29,891 nucleotides of DNA, from IMG/VR virus record IMGVR_UViG_3300020430_000066, positions 1-29,891 of that record; one strand, given 5' to 3'. Source of the stretch: a virus. The notes under the pieces are model-generated. The model saw only the letters and a program-made list of their open reading frames with translations. It was not told where the DNA came from and searched no databases. A program made the position numbers and the translations under genes. Shown one piece after another: positions 12,700 through 29,422 of the stretch. Within the stretch, counting starts at the first letter, position 1, and every line of letters begins with the position of its first letter.

Positions 12700-14793
12700 A
12701 TGGCAACAAGAAAGATACAATATAGACCACTAGGAGTAAGATTAAGATCCTTACCTTCTGTTACTAGATCTGACATAACAGAAACTAGAAGGGGTTTATT
12801 AAATCTTTCACAAAAATTAGATCAAATTTCTGCCATAGGTTTTAAAGAGATGGGCAAACAAGCTGCTATTGAAGGAGCTACAGAAGGAGAAAAATTTAAA
12901 GCATACAAAGTAGAAGAAGATGATTTTGGTAATACATCTATTAGCTTTATGGAAGCTCCAGAGATGGGATCAACTCCAAGAGCAAAAGCATATTACAAAT
13001 CAGCTCAAGCTGCAGCTAAATTACAAATCAAATCTTTGTTTGAACAAAAATTATATGATGCTTATACAAGCAACAGAGCAGATATAGCAGGTTTCAATAA
13101 ACAAGCTAAAGATATATCAGATGGATTATTAGAAAGTTTGAGAGAAAAAAATCCTCAACTATTTAATTATTTTCAATATGACTTTGAACAATCTTCAATA
13201 ACTTATGCAAAATCAGTTTATACAAATTGGTCAAGTACAAAGAACGATATAGAAACTGTAACCTTTCAAGGGTATGTAAATTCTGGTCATGCTGCAAATA
13301 TTATAAAAATGGCAGCTAAAGGAGAAGAAGGCCTGGCAAAAGCAGGTATCTTTGTAAATAATATGACAGGCGATTATCTTAACCTTGGGCCTAAAGAAGC
13401 TTTTATTGCAGGAAATATATCAATAGGAGCAGATGATACTAGATTAGGTATAAAAAATTCTAAAGAACTTTCTAAAGATATTGATTATGCAAGAAACACT
13501 TTTCAAAAAATATATTTAGAAGAAGTATTCAAACAATACAAAGGTAATCATGTTGCTTTGGTCAAGGCTATAGAAGAAGTAAGAGGTGGCACATACATTA
13601 CAAAAGACTTCTTTAATGCGCTAGAAGCTGAAGGACAAGTGATTGGTGTTGGATCTACAAGAATTAGTGAAATATTAAATGATGATGACAGAGATAAACT
13701 TGCAAAAGAACTATTTACAATATTTCATAATGAAACAGATAGAGTAAATAAATTATTTGAAGGAGATAAAAAATATATAAATTTACAAGCAGCTCAAGAT
13801 CAATCAACAATTTTAAAACAAATCATAGGATTAGAAAGATTATCTAGTGATGCAGATAGCTCTGGATTAGAAAAAGATATTACAAAAGCTATATCTGATT
13901 TCAAAGCTAAATATCCTACAGAAGATGCTTTAAAAATGGCTGAAACTTTAGAAGAAACATTTTTTAACAGATATAATGCAGATGATGATATGCCTGGAGT
14001 AAAGCAGTTGTATGAAGAAGATGCAAGACTTGGAATGTTAAATATGGATGATTTAAAAAAAGATACAAGACTTACTGGCACTACAAAAGCAAAAGTTATA
14101 GAAATGGCAAATTCTTATAATATTGGAGATAAACACTGGACAGATCACAATCTTTATAAAGAAGGATTGGCAATCATAAACAAAATGGAAGCTCAAAGCG
14201 CAGGAGGTTTATTTCAAATAACTAATACAGATGCAGAAAGACAAGAAAAAATAAATTTAACTTTTAGAAAAACATTTGAACATCTTATTGACATGAGAGG
14301 AATTCCTATAGGAAATAGTGGTAACAGAATAAATCCAATACATATTGCTGATACACTCAACAAGTTAAATGCAGATGGCAAAATTGTGGCAACAAAACAA
14401 GAATTTAAAAAATTTGAAGGTGGTAAAGATCAATCTACTGGAGATCCAAACATTTCAAAATATAACAATTTACAAGTTTTAAAAGAAAGAGCTGAAATGG
14501 ATCTTGCAGAAACTAAAGATGACAAAAAAAGAGAAACAATAAGTGCAGAAATAAAAAGATTAGAAGGCGAACAATCCAAAGTATTAGAACAAATACCTGG
14601 AGGGTTAAAAGGTTTGGAAGAAAAAGAAAGTAAATTTGATAATTCAAAAGTATTCTTTGTAACAGAAGGAGGGCAGCTTGAAGAACTTACACCAGGCAAA
14701 GTATTACAGCTTCTCCAAAAAGATCCTTATCAACTATTGATACCTTCAAGGTTGGAAGAATATAAACAAATATTAACAATAACAGGGGATTAA
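12700..14793 (+). CDS. Internal virion protein, T7 gp15-like
   Basis: 697 residues (T7 gp15 is 747). A basic N-terminus (RKIQYRPLGVRLRSLP) leads into helical repeats and long charged helices throughout, with no membrane span. Family-like features are GFKEMGKQAAIEGATEGEKF and the following AYYKSAQAAAKLQIKSLFEQ. T7 gp15 forms the periplasmic tunnel of the ejectosome with gp16. The gene is one base from the gp14-like stop and its TAA overlaps the next ATG. Lys/Glu-rich coiled coils occupy residues about 590-650. Sequence identity to T7 gp15 looks low, so position weighs heavily in the call. Confidence 0.83.
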   Translation: MATRKIQYRPLGVRLRSLPSVTRSDITETRRGLLNLSQKLDQISAIGFKEMGKQAAIEGATEGEKFKAYKVEEDDFGNTSISFMEAPEMGSTPRAKAYYKSAQAAAKLQIKSLFEQKLYDAYTSNRADIAGFNKQAKDISDGLLESLREKNPQLFNYFQYDFEQSSITYAKSVYTNWSSTKNDIETVTFQGYVNSGHAANIIKMAAKGEEGLAKAGIFVNNMTGDYLNLGPKEAFIAGNISIGADDTRLGIKNSKELSKDIDYARNTFQKIYLEEVFKQYKGNHVALVKAIEEVRGGTYITKDFFNALEAEGQVIGVGSTRISEILNDDDRDKLAKELFTIFHNETDRVNKLFEGDKKYINLQAAQDQSTILKQIIGLERLSSDADSSGLEKDITKAISDFKAKYPTEDALKMAETLEETFFNRYNADDDMPGVKQLYEEDARLGMLNMDDLKKDTRLTGTTKAKVIEMANSYNIGDKHWTDHNLYKEGLAIINKMEAQSAGGLFQITNTDAERQEKINLTFRKTFEHLIDMRGIPIGNSGNRINPIHIADTLNKLNADGKIVATKQEFKKFEGGKDQSTGDPNISKYNNLQVLKERAEMDLAETKDDKKRETISAEIKRLEGEQSKVLEQIPGGLKGLEEKESKFDNSKVFFVTEGGQLEELTPGKVLQLLQKDPYQLLIPSRLEEYKQILTITGD

Positions 14794-16451
14794 TGAACAG
14801 ATTAGATTTAATATCATCTTTAGAAGGCACAGAAGGTAATGGAGATTTAGAAAGATTACTTGCTTTACGTACACACGAAACAAACAATCTCCATCCTACT
14901 AATGTTAGAGAAACTGCAGAAAAAGACAAAGCATTTAGTACAATAGAAAAAGCTTTTAAATCTGACAATGTTAAGAGTGCAGCTATGCTTGTTGAAATGA
15001 ACAAAGAAAAGCTAGATGATAACTACATAGAAGAAAAAACAAAAGAAGATCCAAGACTAAAAAAATTCTTTACTGAAGGATATAAAATGGTTGGTACTGC
15101 TGTTGAGAGTACAATCAACAATGTTTATGAAGTAACAGATGACTTTGTACAGGTTTTGGAAAAGGTTGGTGTGCCTAATGTTTATATACAAATAAAAGAT
15201 GGCAAAGTAGATTTTACTACAAAAAGACCAGAAGATTTTAATCCAAGGCCTTTTGAATTTGTTGATAACCCAGATAGTATGGCAGCTAATTTAGGTGCAG
15301 GATTTTTAGAATTTATGATCCCTTTTACTGGGATGCTAAAAGCAACAAAGGCATATCAAGGTGGTAACATGGCTACTAATGCTTTGAAGGTGTATGGATC
15401 TGGAGCTGTAGCTGATTTTATGTTTTCTCCAGAATATGGCAACTTTGCGAGCTTGCTAGTAGAGCTTGGTGTCCAAAATGAGTTTGTACAATGGTTAGAT
15501 AGTAGGCCAGAAGATGCAGATGATTTGTACCAAAAATTTGTAGCAAGAGGCAAGCAGGTCATAGAAGGTGGTATTATGGGTGCTATGTTTGATACTGCTA
15601 TACGAAGTATAAAATTTATGAAGCAATCCCCAGAATGGGTTGCAAAAGCAAAAACTTATTTAGCTGCTAACTTTGAAGATGCAGGAAGTGGTTTAGCAGC
15701 AGTAGGATCAGATGCAGGAGCTGCTACTTCAAACATATCTGAAGTTATACCTGCTGCAGATAAATCTCTTTCAGATGCAGGATTAGAAGTTAATACTTCT
15801 CCTACAGATACACCATCTACAGGTGCAAAAGACTTACCATCCCAAGATACAACTGTACCTGGGCCAGAGAGAACTGAAACAATCTCTCCAGAAAAAGATC
15901 TAGGAAATAATAATAATTTATCTGCCATAAGTATTGAAAACAAAATATACCAAGTTGATAACGACATCAACACTTTACTTGCAAAAGCTAACGAAAACAA
16001 GCCAATATTAACAGATATGTTAAACAAATTTGATGCACAAATAGAAATAGATATAAAAAAATTAGATAGTATTAACACTAAATTAAAAGTTAAAAACAGA
16101 AATCCTAATGGATTACCAGATTATTTAAGAGCATATATGTTGGCAGAAAATGTAAAAATCAAAGATATATCAGCACAAATTGAAAAGGATCTAAAAGTTT
16201 TAGATAAAGATTACAATAATAAAACAAGATCAATACATTATCAGATTGAAGTATCTCCTGGATTTACTTCTGAAGTACAATTAAGACCAAAAGAAATACA
16301 TCCTATTATAAGCAAACATCATAAGAGATGGTACAGTTTGAGTAAAAAATATGATAATAAAAACGTTATACCACTAGCTTTACAAATGCAGATATACAAT
16401 GCAGAGATAAAATTAGAGGAGAACATAAATAGATTGTTAGGAAGTATATAA
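14793..16451 (+). CDS. Internal virion protein with C-terminal RelA/SpoT-like domain
   Basis: 552 residues in three parts. Residues 1-160 are charged and helical. Residues 160-290 hold a hydrophobic, possibly membrane-active region (NLGAGFLEFMIPFTGMLKAT) and ELGVQNEFVQWLDSRPEDAD, as in parts of gp16-like ejection proteins. A Ser/Thr/Pro/Ala linker spans about 300-375. Residues 400-535 look like a RelA/SpoT nucleotidyltransferase: LPDYLRAYM (D443, R446) at the RDLxGxR-like position, TRSIHYQIEV (478-487) at GYxSxH, and SEVQLRPKE (E494) at the VEIQIRT position. Both metal-binding acids appear kept, but the Gly-Tyr of GYxSxH is Lys-Thr, so activity may be altered or lost. Coupled by TAATG at both ends. 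Confidence 0.8.
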   Translation: MNRLDLISSLEGTEGNGDLERLLALRTHETNNLHPTNVRETAEKDKAFSTIEKAFKSDNVKSAAMLVEMNKEKLDDNYIEEKTKEDPRLKKFFTEGYKMVGTAVESTINNVYEVTDDFVQVLEKVGVPNVYIQIKDGKVDFTTKRPEDFNPRPFEFVDNPDSMAANLGAGFLEFMIPFTGMLKATKAYQGGNMATNALKVYGSGAVADFMFSPEYGNFASLLVELGVQNEFVQWLDSRPEDADDLYQKFVARGKQVIEGGIMGAMFDTAIRSIKFMKQSPEWVAKAKTYLAANFEDAGSGLAAVGSDAGAATSNISEVIPAADKSLSDAGLEVNTSPTDTPSTGAKDLPSQDTTVPGPERTETISPEKDLGNNNNLSAISIENKIYQVDNDINTLLAKANENKPILTDMLNKFDAQIEIDIKKLDSINTKLKVKNRNPNGLPDYLRAYMLAENVKIKDISAQIEKDLKVLDKDYNNKTRSIHYQIEVSPGFTSEVQLRPKEIHPIISKHHKRWYSLSKKYDNKNVIPLALQMQIYNAEIKLEENINRLLGSI

Positions 16452-19400
16452 TGGGAAGGTTTGGTAAATTTAATGCTGCAGAAATGGCTAAAGAAGTACA
16501 AAAATTTTTTACTAAAGGAATACCAGAACTTGAGCAATACTCCGAAAAAACACTCAAGAAACAAGTCAAGGCCCAAGATCTACTCAAAGAAAAAGGATCT
16601 CCAGAAGAATTATTTGACAAAAAATTTATAAAAAATTTAGAAGCTGCAGCTAATAAAAACCAATTACCACCAGAATTATTCCCAGGTAACTTTGATAGTT
16701 TTAAAAACTCTCTTTGGTACAAGGTAAAAGATGAAGGCGATATTGATGCTTTGATAGAAGTTGTATCAAAACATTATAGTAAAAATGCTTTAGAGGCTAG
16801 GAGAGGTAATAAAAAAGGTGTACTAAAAGATGAAGTTGTAAAAGAGCTAGCAGATGAACTAAATATATCTATTAAGACTTTGCAAAACAGAAGAATTGGA
16901 TCTGTCTATACAGTAGAACAAATGTATGGAGCTATAAAATTATTAAAAGATTTTAGAAAAGTTTTAAAATTATCTCTAAAAAAAGCAGTATCAGAAAATG
17001 CTTCTGGACAAGAAAAAGCTTTTGCAGTGCAAATGACACAAACATATTCTTCTGTACTTAACCAGGTCATGGGTGCAAGAGCTGAACTAGGAAGATCATT
17101 TAGAATATTGAGAGAAATGAAAAATGGTTTTGACCAGATACAAGATGAAGATAAAGCTTTGCAAGCTGTCTTTGACAGTATTGGTGGCAAAGAATTGAAT
17201 GAAAGAAAACTAGAAGCTCTCTATGGTATTATAGAAAACAATGAGAATTCTGTAGCCAGAGCTACAAGACAGTTAAATTTAGCATCTACTAGAGATATGC
17301 TGTTCCAGGTTTATTATAACAATCTTTTATCTGGTATTGACACACACATGGTAAATCTTGGTGCAGGTGTAGTGCTGCAGCATTTTCATCATCTAGCAAG
17401 ATTTGCAGGTGGTACAAAAGGATCTGTAAATAAAATGCTAAACAAACAATACAAGGGCCTTACTTTCAAGCAGGCTCTTGCAGGTTACTATGGTTATATG
17501 CAATCAATGATAGATGGCACTAGAGTATTTGCTTCATCATTATTGACAGGAAGATCTATAGATACATTTTCTAAAGTACCTATTGATGACAGTATTTCTG
17601 GTGGCAAGATAAATATTAGAAATCTTACATACAATTCTGTTGGTAAAGTAAATAAAAGATTGAGAGAAAGACTAGAAGAAGATCCTAAATTTTTAAATGA
17701 CAATATGTATTTTAAAGGTGCAGATGCTATTTTAGATGTATCTACAAGATATGCTCCAAGATTTATGAGAGCTGCAGATGATATGTTAAAATTTATGTTC
17801 TACAGATCGGAGCTGCATACTCATGCTTACAACAAAGCTATGCAAGAAGTAGAAAATGGGGTGCTTGCAGATAAAGATTTTGCATTAAGAGTACAAGAGA
17901 TAGTTAATGATCCAATAAAACAAGCTCCAGAAATTAGACTAAAAGCTTTGGATGAAGCAAGAGATACAGTTTTACAAAGAAGATTAGATAAATTTGGATC
18001 TGCTATTTATGGTGTGTTGAAAGAACAAGCAAATATTCCAGGATCTGCATTTTGGGGAACAACGTTAAAAGTAATTACACCATTTTTTGGAACACTATAC
18101 AATCTAACAAAAGTGGGTTTTGAGCTTACACCAGTTATAAATGCAGCTATAGCAGCTACTCCAGGCACAAAATTAAACACTATGTTAAAATCTACGAACC
18201 AGGTAGAGAGAGATATGGCTATAGGCCACTTAATTGCTTCACATGGGTTAGTCTTTATGTCCACTCTTGCAGCTATGAATGGTTATGTAAAAGGTGGAGA
18301 TCCTGTTTTTAGCAGCAAAAGAGATGCTAAATCTTTAAAATTTATGAAAACAGGGCCAGATGAATTTTCTGTTGTAGTACCTTGGTCAAAGATAGATCCA
18401 GAAGGAGAATTTATAGGATCTTTACATGATGGCAAAGATAGATCTTATCAACTTAATAGATTAGATCCTGCAGGACAGTGGCTTACAATAGGATATAATA
18501 TTGCACAAATGACAGAGGCAAGTGAAGGAGAGATAACAGAAGCTGTTATAAAATCTATTTTATCTGTTGGAGAAAAAACAATATCATCTTCTTTTGCTGT
18601 TAATATTGCAGATACTATAGAGATATTTTCAGATAATTATGGAACAGGAGATCCAACACAATTTACTAGAAAGGTAATAAAATGGGGTGCAAAGAACGTA
18701 GCAAACTTTGTACCAACTTCTTCACGTATGAGAATGAATATAAATAAACTAGGAGATGTAGATGAAAATGGTAACTTGATTGCTAGAACAGGAGATCTGC
18801 CAGATGTATTTACTTTAGAAGATCCAGATGATGGACAGATAAAAGTTTTTGTGGACAATGGGGATGGCACTTATGAAATGATAAATCAAAGCAGCGCAGA
18901 GGAAAATTCAAGCACAGTTGATAGAATGATAAATGATTTTACTAGAGAGCTTGGTAATGAAGTAGATAAAAGAATTGATAGGCAATCACTAGAGCAAGCA
19001 GTGGATTGGTGGGGGAGAGATGCAACAGAAGATCCAAGAATTGGGCCAGGTGGTGTTATTTATTCTCCTGTAAAATACAGAGATATGGAATGGAACGTAC
19101 AATCTCTTATTGATACAGGTTTATTTAGTGAGGAAGATACTCAAAAAACTGTACCTCTTTTACATAGAAACGAAAAATTTGATAGTATTGCAAACATGAG
19201 AACGCAAGATGGCAAGCCTTTATTTGCTAATATTTTAAATATTGTTGGTGTAGCAGGAGAGTTTGAACGATTGAGTTATGGGCCAAGCAATCATCCTGCC
19301 TATATTTCTATCAGAGGCCAAAGAATTAAGTTAAGCAGAGAGCAGCATAACGATTACAAAAAAATGATAAATGGAGATTTTTCTGTTTTGCCTCCAAGTG

Positions 19401-19774
19401 TTTTAGAAAATGTTGAAGCTTATGTATCTCCAGAATATTATGAAAATGTTATGATGAACAATGTATCTTTGAAGGACAATCTACTTACACTTTTTAATTC
19501 TGATATGTATTATATCTATGGATCAGATGATGACACTGCAACTACTTCAAGAGAAACAATGATTGATAATACTATAAGATTTCATAGGCATGGAAAACCA
19601 GAGCAATTTAAAAATAGCTTTGAAACTAGCGAAAATTTAAGAATTGGTCTTGATGGCCCAGATAAATTATTGATGTTAAAATATCCAGATTTAAAGTATA
19701 AAGCACTTGAGTTGACTAAAAATATAAATGACAAAAATATGAAACCTTTAAGAGAAGTTATAGGAGCAGAATAA
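16451..19774 (+). CDS. Large internal virion (ejection) protein, T7 gp16-like core
   Basis: 1107 residues, the longest gene here. Predominantly helical with hydrophobic segments. The diagnostic block is VYYNNLLSGIDTHMVNLGAG near residues 290-312, matching the LLSGxxTHxVN motif of giant podovirus internal core proteins. Further on are FWGTTLKVITPFFGTLYNLT and LIASHGLVFMSTLAAMNGYV, consistent with membrane-interacting segments that cross the inner membrane during DNA ejection. No lysozyme or lytic transglycosylase domain is visible, unlike T7 gp16, whose N-terminus carries one. With the preceding 552-residue protein it may represent a split gp16. TAATG coupled. Confidence 0.87.
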   Translation: MGRFGKFNAAEMAKEVQKFFTKGIPELEQYSEKTLKKQVKAQDLLKEKGSPEELFDKKFIKNLEAAANKNQLPPELFPGNFDSFKNSLWYKVKDEGDIDALIEVVSKHYSKNALEARRGNKKGVLKDEVVKELADELNISIKTLQNRRIGSVYTVEQMYGAIKLLKDFRKVLKLSLKKAVSENASGQEKAFAVQMTQTYSSVLNQVMGARAELGRSFRILREMKNGFDQIQDEDKALQAVFDSIGGKELNERKLEALYGIIENNENSVARATRQLNLASTRDMLFQVYYNNLLSGIDTHMVNLGAGVVLQHFHHLARFAGGTKGSVNKMLNKQYKGLTFKQALAGYYGYMQSMIDGTRVFASSLLTGRSIDTFSKVPIDDSISGGKINIRNLTYNSVGKVNKRLRERLEEDPKFLNDNMYFKGADAILDVSTRYAPRFMRAADDMLKFMFYRSELHTHAYNKAMQEVENGVLADKDFALRVQEIVNDPIKQAPEIRLKALDEARDTVLQRRLDKFGSAIYGVLKEQANIPGSAFWGTTLKVITPFFGTLYNLTKVGFELTPVINAAIAATPGTKLNTMLKSTNQVERDMAIGHLIASHGLVFMSTLAAMNGYVKGGDPVFSSKRDAKSLKFMKTGPDEFSVVVPWSKIDPEGEFIGSLHDGKDRSYQLNRLDPAGQWLTIGYNIAQMTEASEGEITEAVIKSILSVGEKTISSSFAVNIADTIEIFSDNYGTGDPTQFTRKVIKWGAKNVANFVPTSSRMRMNINKLGDVDENGNLIARTGDLPDVFTLEDPDDGQIKVFVDNGDGTYEMINQSSAEENSSTVDRMINDFTRELGNEVDKRIDRQSLEQAVDWWGRDATEDPRIGPGGVIYSPVKYRDMEWNVQSLIDTGLFSEEDTQKTVPLLHRNEKFDSIANMRTQDGKPLFANILNIVGVAGEFERLSYGPSNHPAYISIRGQRIKLSREQHNDYKKMINGDFSVLPPSVLENVEAYVSPEYYENVMMNNVSLKDNLLTLFNSDMYYIYGSDDDTATTSRETMIDNTIRFHRHGKPEQFKNSFETSENLRIGLDGPDKLLMLKYPDLKYKALELTKNINDKNMKPLREVIGAE

Positions 19775-22683: not shown

Positions 22684-24294
22684 ATGACGAAAGCTAGAGA
22701 TATAGCAGATTTCAAATTTGAAAACATAGTAGATACTGGTACTACTGGTACTAAAGTAGCTACAGGTACTACAGCACAACGAGGTTCTACTACTGGTCAA
22801 TTTAGATTTAATTCTACAACTGGATTAGCTGAATATTATGATGGTACTGATTTTAGATCTATTGATAGTCCACCATCAGTTTCAAGTGTTAATACATCAA
22901 ATTTTGAAAGTTCAGCTTTACCAACTAATATAGTTATTACTGGAAGCAATTTTGCTTCTGCTATTACTGTTAAATTTATTGGTAATGATGGAACTGAAAC
23001 TTCAGCAGGTACAACCACGAGAGATAGTGCAACACAAATAACAGCACAAATACCAAACACAATTACAAGTGCTAATGAGCCTTATAATGTTAAAGTAACA
23101 AACAGCTCATCAAATTTATCAAATACTTTAGCAAATGCTTTTAATATAGATGCAGCTCCAGCCTTTTCTGTTGCTTCTGGTTCTTTAGGAACAATATTAA
23201 GTGGTGCTTCTGGTTCTGGTCTTACACAAGTTACTGCTAGTGATGATGAGGGAGATAGTATTACTTTTTCAATTTCGTCTGGTTCAATTCCTGCAGGATT
23301 AACTTTTAATTCTAATGGTTCTTTTTCTGGTAATGCCAGTAATGTAGGTACAAATACTGTTTCAACATTTACAGTTCAAGCAAGTGATGGAACAAACACA
23401 TCAACAAGACAATACACAGCACAAGTCAATGCACCGACTTATGTTCAACTATCTGGCTCTGGTACTTGGTCTGTTCCAAGTGGAGTTACAAGTGCAGAGA
23501 TATTAATAGTTGCAGGTGGTGGTTCTGGAGGTCGTTCTCCAAATGTAGCTTCTGGTGGTGGAGGTGGTGGAGGAATTGTCCACACTTCTTCTTACACATT
23601 TACATCAACTGACATATCTAATGGTATTGCCTATGTTGTGGGTGATGGTGGTACTGGTGTTGGAATGAATGGTGTTCAAGATGACGAAAGTAATGCTACT
23701 GAAGGTGTAGGACAATATGGTCACGATACTACTTTTGCTATTTCTGGTGGCACAATCACAGCTAAAGGTGGTGGTTATGCAGGTGGTTATGATGCTTCTT
23801 CTTACAGACCTGCAAGACAAGGTGGTTCTGGTGGTGGAGGTTCTTGGGATCAATTAAGTGGTGCTTCATCTAATCAAGCTACATTTTCTGGTTGGACATC
23901 TTATGGAAACTCTGGTGGAAATTTTGTAAATTCTGGTGGAGGAAATGCTTTGAATGGTGCAGGTGGCGGAGGTGCAGGTGGAGCAGGTGCTAACATGAAC
24001 AATGCAGGTTCTGGTGGTAATGGTGGTGTTGGACAATTATTTTCTAATTTTACATCTTATGGTGCTTCTGGCTACTTTGGTGGAGGTGGCGGAGGCGGAA
24101 ATGACAGTAACGCAAATGCTTCTTCTGGCGGAAATGGCGGAGGTGGTAATGGCGGACATACTGGAAGTAAATCTGGCTCTAATGGTACTGCCACAACTGG
24201 TGGTGGAGGCGGAGGTGCTAGTTCAGATGGTTACAACAACTTCACTTATAAAGGTGGAAATGGCGGCTCTGGAACTATCTTAATTAAATACTAA
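22684..24294 (+). CDS. Glycine-rich tail adhesin with IPT/TIG-like and Ig-like domains
   Basis: 536 residues. Residues 1-60 (MTKARDIADFKFENIVDTGT; STTGQFRFNSTTGLAEYYDG) are a virion-attachment head seen in many marine phage tail proteins. Residues 62-155 fit an IPT/TIG Ig-like fold (PPSVSSVNTSNFESSALPTN). Residues 156-250 fit a cadherin/He_PIG-like Ig domain (SIPAGLTFNSNGSFSGNA). From residue 257, TWSVPSGVTSAEILIVAGGG introduces a glycine-rich domain to the end with many GGGG runs, typical of polyglycine-II-type adhesins such as T-even gp38. It probably determines receptor specificity. Codon use is GGT/GGC-rich here, unlike the rest of the genome. Confidence 0.85.
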   Translation: MTKARDIADFKFENIVDTGTTGTKVATGTTAQRGSTTGQFRFNSTTGLAEYYDGTDFRSIDSPPSVSSVNTSNFESSALPTNIVITGSNFASAITVKFIGNDGTETSAGTTTRDSATQITAQIPNTITSANEPYNVKVTNSSSNLSNTLANAFNIDAAPAFSVASGSLGTILSGASGSGLTQVTASDDEGDSITFSISSGSIPAGLTFNSNGSFSGNASNVGTNTVSTFTVQASDGTNTSTRQYTAQVNAPTYVQLSGSGTWSVPSGVTSAEILIVAGGGSGGRSPNVASGGGGGGGIVHTSSYTFTSTDISNGIAYVVGDGGTGVGMNGVQDDESNATEGVGQYGHDTTFAISGGTITAKGGGYAGGYDASSYRPARQGGSGGGGSWDQLSGASSNQATFSGWTSYGNSGGNFVNSGGGNALNGAGGGGAGGAGANMNNAGSGGNGGVGQLFSNFTSYGASGYFGGGGGGGNDSNANASSGGNGGGGNGGHTGSKSGSNGTATTGGGGGGASSDGYNNFTYKGGNGGSGTILIKY

Positions 24295-26258: not shown

Positions 26259-26576
26259 TTATCTTTTTGCAATATCTCTTTTGATATACCAATTATTCCA
26301 AGTATGTTTCTTTCCATCATTATGAAACCTGCCAAGAATTCCTTTATCAACTAAAGCGCAAAGCTTGTTGTAGGTTGCTGTTACACTGCTCATCTCCATG
26401 GCAGCTAGTATTCTTACAGAGGGAGCATGGCCTTTCTCATCATTAAATTTTTTAAAATTTACAAACACTGCCATTTGTCCAGGAGTAACAGAGTAATTAA
26501 TTTTTTCCTGTAAAAATCCAGATCCATCACACCTTGGACAAATAGTTTTAGTATTATATTTTTTATTGTTTGCCAC
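26259..26576 (-). CDS. Zinc-knuckle plus winged-helix regulator, 105 aa (GTG start)
   Basis: The start is GTG (complement of 26574-26576) with GGAGAG upstream inside recT. Residues 13-20 are CPRCDGSG, one half of a DnaJ-type zinc site. Residues 28-95 read as a winged helix: TPGQMAVFVNFKKFNDEKGH, APSVRILAAMEMSSVTATYN, KLCALVDKGILGRF. The helix-turn-helix followed by a basic wing (HNDGKKHTW) suggests DNA binding, as in LexA/MarR-like repressors. It could regulate the recombination operon or late genes. Only one CxxC pair is present, so zinc binding would need a dimer. Confidence 0.8.
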   Translation of the reverse strand: MANNKKYNTKTICPRCDGSGFLQEKINYSVTPGQMAVFVNFKKFNDEKGHAPSVRILAAMEMSSVTATYNKLCALVDKGILGRFHNDGKKHTWNNWYIKRDIAKR

Positions 26577-27507
26577 CCAACTCTCCTGCTATGGTCATAT
26601 ACTCATTCCAGATTGATGTATGTAATCCACTATCAACCTTATCTACTTCTTTCAAAGTATCATCATTAATAAGTAGGAGCTGCTTCAAGAACTCAAGCTT
26701 CTTCTGCTTGGAAGTTGTTTTATGATTTTTTATTTTATTCATATTGTTCATAAATTCTTCTGCAAAAGATTTAGGATCTTCACAATAAACAGCAGGCCCT
26801 TTCAATCTTCTCATATCCCAGGGAGATTTATCATCCTCTGGTTGAGTATCTTGTTCCTGGGCCATAGGAGCTTCAGAATGACCAAGCTTTCCTTTGCCTA
26901 TAGTTGTATCATCTTTTGCCTTTGATGCCTCTCCTGGCTCATCTATGGGCTTTTTAGATAGGTTATCTAGCTGCTTTGATACTGGAGTTATATCTTTTAT
27001 AGAGCTTTTAGGATAATCCTGCGCTTCTTCTGCAGAAATCATACCACCCAAAGCATCTGCAAATACATCTCTTAATGCAAAGCCTCTAGCTCTCATCTTT
27101 AACATACGATCTGGGTAAGATTTCCATGGCCCTGGTCTATTCAACAGGCCTGCCTTCGCAGCTTCTCCCATAGTGAACTGGGATTTGTACCAGGATTGTC
27201 CTTTTCTTTTAATCTCACACACTGCTGTTCTTGCAGATCCTTCTCCAGATATTGTTTCTTTTATATCCTCAAACTCTGGATGCCTTCTGCATAGTGCAAT
27301 CATTGTATCTCCATAGATACTTGGCTTGCCATTTATCACAGCAATATTCTGCAGTGATTGTATTGGCGATAATCCAAGCTCATCTCCCCAACTCATAGCC
27401 AGGTAAATATCTGCAGGCTTACCTCTGAATTGTTGAGGTACTAAATTTGATGAAGCAATTTCTTTAGCAAACTGCATCTTCGGATCTTTCTTTACTAGAT
27501 CACTCAT
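26563..27507 (-). CDS. recT: RecT-family single-strand annealing protein
   Basis: 314 residues. The signature region is residues 35-85: YLAMSWGDELGLSPIQSLQN, IAVINGKPSIYGDTMIALCR and the following FEDIKETI, followed by KGQSWYKSQFTMGEAAKAGL with PWKSYPDRMLKMRARGFALR. The C-terminal third is Lys/Asp-rich and probably flexible. RecT pairs complementary ssDNA exposed by the partner exonuclease, repairing and recombining phage genomes. The ATG overlaps the TGA of the 85-residue gene (ATGA), and an AAGGAAA lies upstream. Co-directional with the YqaJ exonuclease, it forms a Red-like pair. Confidence 0.94.
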   Translation of the reverse strand: MSDLVKKDPKMQFAKEIASSNLVPQQFRGKPADIYLAMSWGDELGLSPIQSLQNIAVINGKPSIYGDTMIALCRRHPEFEDIKETISGEGSARTAVCEIKRKGQSWYKSQFTMGEAAKAGLLNRPGPWKSYPDRMLKMRARGFALRDVFADALGGMISAEEAQDYPKSSIKDITPVSKQLDNLSKKPIDEPGEASKAKDDTTIGKGKLGHSEAPMAQEQDTQPEDDKSPWDMRRLKGPAVYCEDPKSFAEEFMNNMNKIKNHKTTSKQKKLEFLKQLLLINDDTLKEVDKVDSGLHTSIWNEYMTIAGELGGKQ

Positions 27508-28726: not shown

Positions 28727-29422
28727 TTATCTGTACATTTCCACATTTCTTACAGAGCTAGCATACCATTTGCCCTCTGTTTTGCTCTTGATCCCTCTGG
28801 CATTGAGAGCAGCAGCAATCCCTCTGTAGGTATTTACTTTGCCATTCTCTCTTATGTCCTTGATCTTTGGTAAGATCTCTCTGGCAAATTCAGCAGCAGC
28901 TTTCTTCTTTGCTTCAACAGCTAGAGCTGCAGCCTGGGCCAAGTTAGTTGTATTGCCAAGCTTGGTAATAATTCTATTGGAAGCTTTGGTTCTGTGCTGC
29001 CCATCTCTTTTTAATTTTTTTTTGATTTGTCTTAATCCATTTCTTGTTCTTTGTTGGATCATCTTAACTTCTCTTTGAGCTATAACAGCCAGGATTGATA
29101 TGGTTGTTTCATCTGCCTCTGGCATATCACAGATAGTAAATTTAACTCCATCCTCCTGGAGCTGTAAAAAGAAACTAGCTTTTCTTGTTAGCCTGTCCAT
29201 TGTAGCAATCAACAATCTTGCATTGTTTTCTTTTGCAAACTGGATGGCAGCCTGGAGCTGCTTCCTGTTGTTTTTTAATCCACTCTCTTGTTCAGTAAAA
29301 GTTTTCAACAAAACAGATCCATCTCTTTTTGAAATAAAATCTTTTATCTTATCTTGTTGAGCAGCAATACCCAGGAGCTGCTTCTTGGTACTTGTTCTTA
29401 AATAACCAACGTAGTTATTCAT
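28727..29422 (-). CDS. Compact serine recombinase/resolvase
   Basis: 231 residues behind AGGAGGATCAA. The N-terminal catalytic domain shows YLRTST with nucleophile S11 and R9, ESGLKNNRKQL, MDRLTRK (R77, R80) and the E-helix region QREVKMIQQRTRNGL. The C-terminus has RGIAAALNARGIKSKTEGKW with YASSVRNVEMYR, the helical element of the large-recombinase domain, but no zinc ribbon or long coiled coil. It is therefore larger than a resolvase (about 185) and far smaller than a serine integrase (450 or more). It could integrate, invert or resolve phage DNA. Start overlaps the HTH stop (ATGA). Confidence 0.93.
   Translation of the reverse strand: MNNYVGYLRTSTKKQLLGIAAQQDKIKDFISKRDGSVLLKTFTEQESGLKNNRKQLQAAIQFAKENNARLLIATMDRLTRKASFFLQLQEDGVKFTICDMPEADETTISILAVIAQREVKMIQQRTRNGLRQIKKKLKRDGQHRTKASNRIITKLGNTTNLAQAAALAVEAKKKAAAEFAREILPKIKDIRENGKVNTYRGIAAALNARGIKSKTEGKWYASSVRNVEMYR

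Follow-up and report, generated by a model that had tools for sequence, protein, structure and literature searches.

The C-terminal part of a 552-residue phage protein, ORF B, is a divergent transferase domain of the RelA/SpoT family (residues ~413 to 525; Pol-beta fold). ORF B is encoded in a 29,891-base record of a marine, T7-like virus; the record was analyzed as a whole and is referred to here as the window. ORF B makes up the N-terminal half of an internal virion protein D (IVP-D; the T7 gp16-like ejection protein) that is split in two. Profile comparison, divergent orthologues that exceed the Pfam cut-off, and the fold of an AlphaFold model converge on the family assignment, bearing out the RelA/SpoT-like domain that had been proposed in an initial annotation of the sequence. 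We propose, with a probability of about one-half, that the domain is a virion-delivered effector, which would be packaged and ejected with the DNA and would transfer pyrophosphate from ATP to an acceptor that is neither GTP nor GDP.

The structural genes of the window follow a T7-like order, namely, terminase, head-tail adaptor (portal), scaffold position, major capsid protein, tail tubular proteins A and B, a 147-residue ORF, ORF A, ORF B, ORF C, and tail fiber (Table 1). ORF A matched no family in Pfam and PHROG profile searches. The motifs that the initial annotation had read in ORF B, LPDYLRAYM (with D443), TRSIHYQIEV, SEVQLRPKE (with E494), and HH-K-WY, were all found where it had placed them. 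It had drawn the domain from residue 400 to residue 535; the RelA/SpoT identity held, and the limits have been adjusted to the core given above and to a larger exchangeable unit that comprises residues ~300 to 552 (window positions ~15690 to 16448). It had missed that a donor-site Arg is replaced by Asp (D420) and a second Arg by Val (V433), and that the protein is half of a split ejection protein.

Table 1. Features of ORF B and its neighbors (positions are those of the window)
Feature	Position	Strand	Remark
ORF A, 697 aa: position of internal virion protein C (gp15-like)	12700..14793	+	synteny
ORF B, 552 aa: split internal virion protein D (gp16-like) N-terminal half plus RelA/SpoT-like cassette	14793..16451	+	residues 155-291 align with the N-terminal part of single-chain IVP-D
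ORF B residues 1-300: IVP-D N-terminal region	14793..15692	+	most hydrophobic stretches 164-182, 205-223, 255-273
ORF B residues 301-379: Ser/Thr/Pro/Asn-rich low-complexity linker	15693..15929	+	exchanged cassette begins here
ORF B residues 380-412: leading helices	15930..16028	+	
ORF B residues 413-525: RelA/SpoT (SYNTH)-like transferase core	16029..16367	+	
Donor-site positions D420 and K422	16050..16058	+	
D443, catalytic/metal Asp (FaRel2 D90)	16119..16121	+	invariant
KTRSIH (477-482), equivalent of the GYxSxH G-loop	16221..16238	+	T478 for Tyr, H482 retained
E494-V-Q496-L-R498, syn4 ExQxR motif	16272..16286 (E494 codon 16272-16274)	+	E/Q/R invariant
ORF B residues 526-552: C-terminal helix	16368..16448	+	variable cassette end
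ORF C, 1107 aa: rest of internal virion protein D	16451..19774	+	phrog_6651

Searches of viral contigs with the domain returned close relatives only, and a divergent subfamily (II), whose domain is 31 to 35% identical to that of the window, was reached only via a search with the neighboring ORF C (L047 and L043, then L054, L046, and L045). Eight contigs, including the window, carry allele I, and five carry allele II; no relatives of the domain were found in annotated phages or GTDB genomes. Compared with the Pfam RelA_SpoT model (PF04607), the window copy scored below threshold (E value of 0.027; 15.2 bits versus a cut-off of 27), with a match that was colinear over positions 4 to 106 of 113. 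Orthologues at the same place in the same gene exceeded this cut-off, at 29.2 bits for L043 and 27.1 bits for L047. When a profile of six close relatives was compared with a reference alignment of 16 RelA/SpoT proteins drawn from phage-collection records, a score of 34.7 over 134 columns was obtained, relative to at most 22.8 for 300 column shuffles, 13.3 for the reversed profile, and at most 15.7 for 73 windows of this phage's other proteins. A two-subfamily profile matched the RelA/SpoT reference in hhalign with a probability of 96% (P = 4.8e-9, 134 columns; score of 58.7, with 200 shuffles reaching at most 21.2), and the sole match of a 10-member alignment among PDB sequences was a colinear GTP pyrophosphokinase (E value of 0.057). 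The order and spacing of SYNTH-domain residues are likewise kept, from K422 (the donor Lys), S426, and K430 through D443, K472-D473-Y474, R479/S480/H482, and E494/Q496/R498 to H510/Y514. Matches of the domain to the Pfam families Protein_K, Peptidase_C33, PAZ_2, Enkurin, and Fib_alpha and to a PHROG methyltransferase were dropped as short, coiled-coil-like, or inconsistent across relatives, and PDB sequence matches to SYNZIP6, tektin, and PvuII, obtained with the single sequence or the six-member alignment, were noise.

AlphaFold run on the six close sequences was uninformative (pLDDT of 47). Using the two-subfamily alignment, from which canonical SAS proteins were excluded since MAFFT misplaced the DxxG motif, one of five models reached moderate confidence (pLDDT of 66.6, pTM of 0.62), and the other four remained below a pLDDT of 39. 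A Foldseek search of the PDB with this moderate-confidence model returned Rel/RelA, RelP/SAS1, SAS2, Tas1, and FaRel2 as all of its top 16 matches, so that the structure prediction by which the initial annotation had proposed to judge the fold retrieved RelA/SpoT structures. Because the superpositions on the Rel and SAS structures are loose (TMq of 0.38 to 0.52, root mean square deviation of 5.4 to 7.5 Å), the geometry of the model should not be over-read. A 95%-identical viral protein of 551 residues, already present in UniProt/BFVD and predicted separately, shares the fold (TMq of 0.81).

In FaRel2, residues R64, K66, S70, K74, and R77 bind ATP, D90 binds the metal, and Y128 and R95 contact the acceptor adenine (PMC11782079). 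The residues at these positions, in the same order, are D420, K422, S426, K430, V433, D443, T478, and Y448 in the window and R, K, K, K, R, D, L, and K in subfamily II. D443 and E494, on whose conservation among relatives the initial annotation had staked its assignment, are invariant in 11 of 11 sequences, including the divergent subfamily, and K472-D473-Y474, R479, H482, Q496, R498, H510, and Y514 are also identical in both subfamilies. Overall, the two subfamilies share the same residue at 14 of 20 canonical positions, versus 36 of 106 for the core as a whole (hypergeometric P = 3e-4, a value that is indicative only, since the list of positions was hand-picked from the literature and the alignment).

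The guanine-stacking Tyr of GYxSxH is Thr in the window (T478), as had been pointed out initially, and both the acceptor-base Tyr and the acceptor-base Arg (Y448 in the window) are missing from both subfamilies; the G-loop reads KTRSIH in the window and KLRTTH in allele II. At the donor site, the window allele retains the Lys and has lost two Arg residues, and allele II retains both Arg residues and thus a nearly complete site. With substitutions at the acceptor-base residues in both subfamilies and two donor-site Arg residues lost from the window allele, the domain is unlikely, on the basis of its sequence, to be a canonical (p)ppGpp synthetase. Given that neither the complete donor-site Arg and Lys set nor the G-loop with its acceptor-stacking Tyr is present in the window allele, we class the domain as a member of the RelA/SpoT-fold superfamily and not as a (p)ppGpp synthetase, with the activity of the window allele uncertain; the R-to-D and R-to-V changes at its ATP site may have weakened catalysis.

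The carrier is homologous to a podovirus ejection protein, in agreement with the initial annotation, as judged by both IVP-D homology and synteny. In outgroup autographiviruses (HTVC011P, HTVC041P, CRP-361, CRP-118, and the uncultured S28-C10), IVP-D is a single chain, to which ORF C and residues 155 to 291 of ORF B are homologous in consecutive stretches, and the genes lie between the IVP-C position and the tail fiber. The HTVC041P chain resembles ORF B up to residue 234, and its residue 515 already corresponds to residue 280 of ORF C, which leaves no space for an insert at this site. Hence, the gene has been split in the window lineage, with ~250 residues added at the break. The start codon of ORF C overlaps the last base of the ORF B stop codon (TAATG), and an AGGAAG ribosome-binding site lies inside ORF B. 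A sequencing error was ruled out as the source of the split, since the separate stop and start codons are kept in every contig that covers the junction. T7 gp16 is ejected, with its N-terminal part in the periplasm, a membrane region at residues 243 to 410, and gp16-C (residues 411 to 1118) in the cytoplasm (PMC8954989). Based on homology and synteny, ORF B is probably ejected as well. By analogy with T7 gp16, the domain would lie beyond the first membrane region, in the cytoplasm, although the hydrophobic stretches within residues 164 to 273 of ORF B are weak.

Nucleotide identity between relatives shifts abruptly at two points, one at approximately nucleotide 900 of ORF B and the other close to where ORF C starts. 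For L007 and L047, identity is mostly 85 to 97% before the first step (nucleotides 300 to 900), 53 to 65% in the cassette, and 81 to 93% in ORF C. The corresponding values before, within, and after the cassette are 63 to 91%, 93 to 97%, and 77 to 94% for L047 and L043 and 81 to 92%, 97 to 100%, and 81 to 91% for L002 and L003. These steps at the cassette edges indicate that residues ~300 to 552 move as a unit, independently of both flanks. The C-terminal tip is thus variable and exchanged independently of its carrier, with two SAS alleles and a variant with an added domain (L046), and such recombination is the pattern expected of polymorphic effector (toxin) tips. Within allele I, the ratio of nonsynonymous to synonymous substitution rates (dN/dS) is ~0.13 to 0.16 in the SAS core, relative to ~0.20 to 0.24 in the N terminus, values that reflect purifying selection.

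The variant in L046 (331-747) continues for a further ~140 residues after the RelA/SpoT domain (VYRVVPKDV...TGDYVALT...). This added domain resembles the one at the C terminus of ParB-like proteins from mycobacteriophages (phrog_2579, E value of 1.6e-10; ~30% identity by tblastn), and no relative of it was found in the PDB. L043 and L045 have short, differing tails, with ends of similar residues.

We favor the following scenario. The T7 gp16-like ejection-protein gene is split in two in this lineage, and its first half ends in an acquired, exchangeable cassette, in which a flexible linker precedes the transferase domain of RelA/SpoT fold. Belonging to the ejection complex, the first half would be packaged in the virion and expelled at infection; if the region after the first membrane-associated segment faces the host cytoplasm, as in T7 gp16, the domain would arrive there with the DNA. 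The retained metal site (D443/E494) would most likely be used for pyrophosphate transfer from ATP, with a remodeled acceptor pocket, and host physiology or defense would be altered at the time of entry.

The principal rival to this scenario is a pseudoenzyme that has been kept as a fold and binds either a host factor (e.g., host Rel or toxSAS, its antitoxin, the ribosome, or tRNA) or a nucleotide without catalysis, which would make it an injected inhibitor or decoy. We regard this explanation as possible, if somewhat unlikely: the acceptor Tyr and Arg are missing in both subfamilies and the donor Arg is lost in the window allele, with purifying selection on the domain persisting nonetheless, but the metal acids and the E-Q-R of syn4 do not vary between subfamilies that are 34% identical, and the donor-site R/K/K/R persists in allele II, whereas pure decoys often lose such residues. 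The conservation of active-site residues also argues against a purely structural domain, i.e., a spacer or assembly module that serves the packing and refolding of the split ejection protein and has no host target. Although the carrier is an ejection protein and mosaicism is known among gp16 homologues, this role is improbable given that the outgroup phages do without a domain at this site and that the cassette has been replaced by a 34%-identical allele while its near flanks remain mostly 85 to 97% identical, which is unexpected for a tightly fitting part.

A further explanation is that the 552-residue protein is not ejected and instead acts late in the producing cell, as a nonvirion or assembly-stage protein. 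As an ORF of its own, apart from the main body of IVP-D, ORF B could have become free of the complex; however, five outgroup phages have a single-chain IVP-D whose N terminus is homologous to that of ORF B, and all contigs of the lineage that span the region keep the gene between the positions of IVP-C and IVP-D, so we consider this explanation quite improbable. Returning to the virion-delivered effector, a wider but tentative extension is that the break in the split gp16-like gene serves as a polymorphic effector port in podoviruses, through which swappable enzymatic cassettes (RelA/SpoT-fold allele I, allele II, and allele II with a further domain) might be carried into the host cytoplasm by the N-terminal half of the ejectosome protein. 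In this view, the RelA/SpoT cassettes would modify a new acceptor, given the replacement of both acceptor-base residues.

The Apk2 (MuF-SAS) polymorphic toxins of temperate phages carry RelA/SpoT domains in MuF fusions, and the characterized members make (p)ppApp from ATP (PMC12226406). Like these toxins, ORF B has a RelA/SpoT-fold domain at the C terminus of a phage head-associated protein that is thought to be delivered with DNA. In contrast, the carrier here is a podovirus gp16-like ejection protein with an N terminus homologous to IVP-D, and Pfam and PHROG profile searches with ORF B gave no match to a MuF domain. The G-loop also differs, in that both alleles lack the GxN (adenosine) form as well as the GYxSxH (guanosine) form, and there is no adjacent immunity gene, since ORF C begins immediately downstream. 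ORFs A and C flank ORF B directly, and a scan of the window ORFs (all but the smallest) revealed neither a hydrolase nor a known antitoxin family, so that no antitoxin or immunity gene was recognized. Phage polyvalent proteins also carry RelA/SpoT domains (Iyer et al. 2017, PMC5512222) and resemble the present case in that the domain is part of a large, probably injected phage protein that undergoes mosaic domain shuffling, as with the second domain of L046. A text search of that article retrieved polyvalent and MuF contexts and no gp16 or T7-like ejection-protein carrier.

With the toxSAS enzymes FaRel2 and CapRel and with Tas1/Apk1, the domain has in common the fold, as identified by Foldseek (6ox6 and 8pu4), and the D, the E, and the donor Lys; it differs in lacking equivalents of FaRel2 Y128 and R95 and, in the window allele, of R64 and R77. 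The N terminus of ORF B and ORF C are related to T7 gp16 and pelagiphage IVP-D by synteny and sequence homology, although this protein is a single chain in T7, HTVC011P, HTVC041P, and CRP phages, rather than 552 plus 1,107 residues with a ~250-residue cassette at the break. The best single-sequence relative in the reference set (20.2 bits) was gene 6 of Nitrososphaera phage Pro-Nvie1 (L030, FR725450.1), which is also found in a head gene cluster but encodes a stand-alone, 210-residue Rel_Spo-like protein with canonical ARIKD and GYRGYH motifs. Pro-Nvie1 is an archaeal provirus, and its RelA/SpoT-like gene lies between the portal and protease/major capsid genes. We found no report of a RelA/SpoT domain in a T7-type internal virion protein in the open-license literature. 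Injected phage proteins with RelA/SpoT domains have thus been described before; what seems to be new here, to the extent of our search, is the placement of the domain in an exchangeable cassette of a podovirus ejection protein that is split in two.

If the virion-delivered effector is correct, T7-like phages, among them relatives of those that infect abundant marine bacteria, would deliver a stress-signal-type enzyme from the ejection machine as their DNA enters the cell, and the concept of virion-borne effectors developed for MuF and polyvalent proteins would extend to the gp16 ejectosome. The cassette site would be precisely defined and could be mined for other effectors, and the RelA/SpoT fold would have gained a member that probably does not act on the usual acceptors, guanine or CCA-adenine.

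The BFVD fold search also returned RelA/SpoT-like domains in uncultured-phage proteins of ~1000 to 1300 residues (A0A516L6N4, A0A6J5NP43, A0A516LGL6, A0A6J5KIV2, A0A6J5Q8J2, and A0A6J5MFM5), some of which are annotated as DdrB-like or ART-PolyVal-like. Elsewhere in the window, a 536-residue ORF that follows the tail fiber (positions 22684 to 24294) has a C-terminal Gly-rich domain (Pfam Gly_rich_2) and similarity to phrog_2295. The opposite strand encodes a serine-recombinase/resolvase-like ORF (28727 to 29422) and a RecT-family ORF (26563 to 27507), which are unusual beside a T7-like structural module and may point to a temperate lifestyle.
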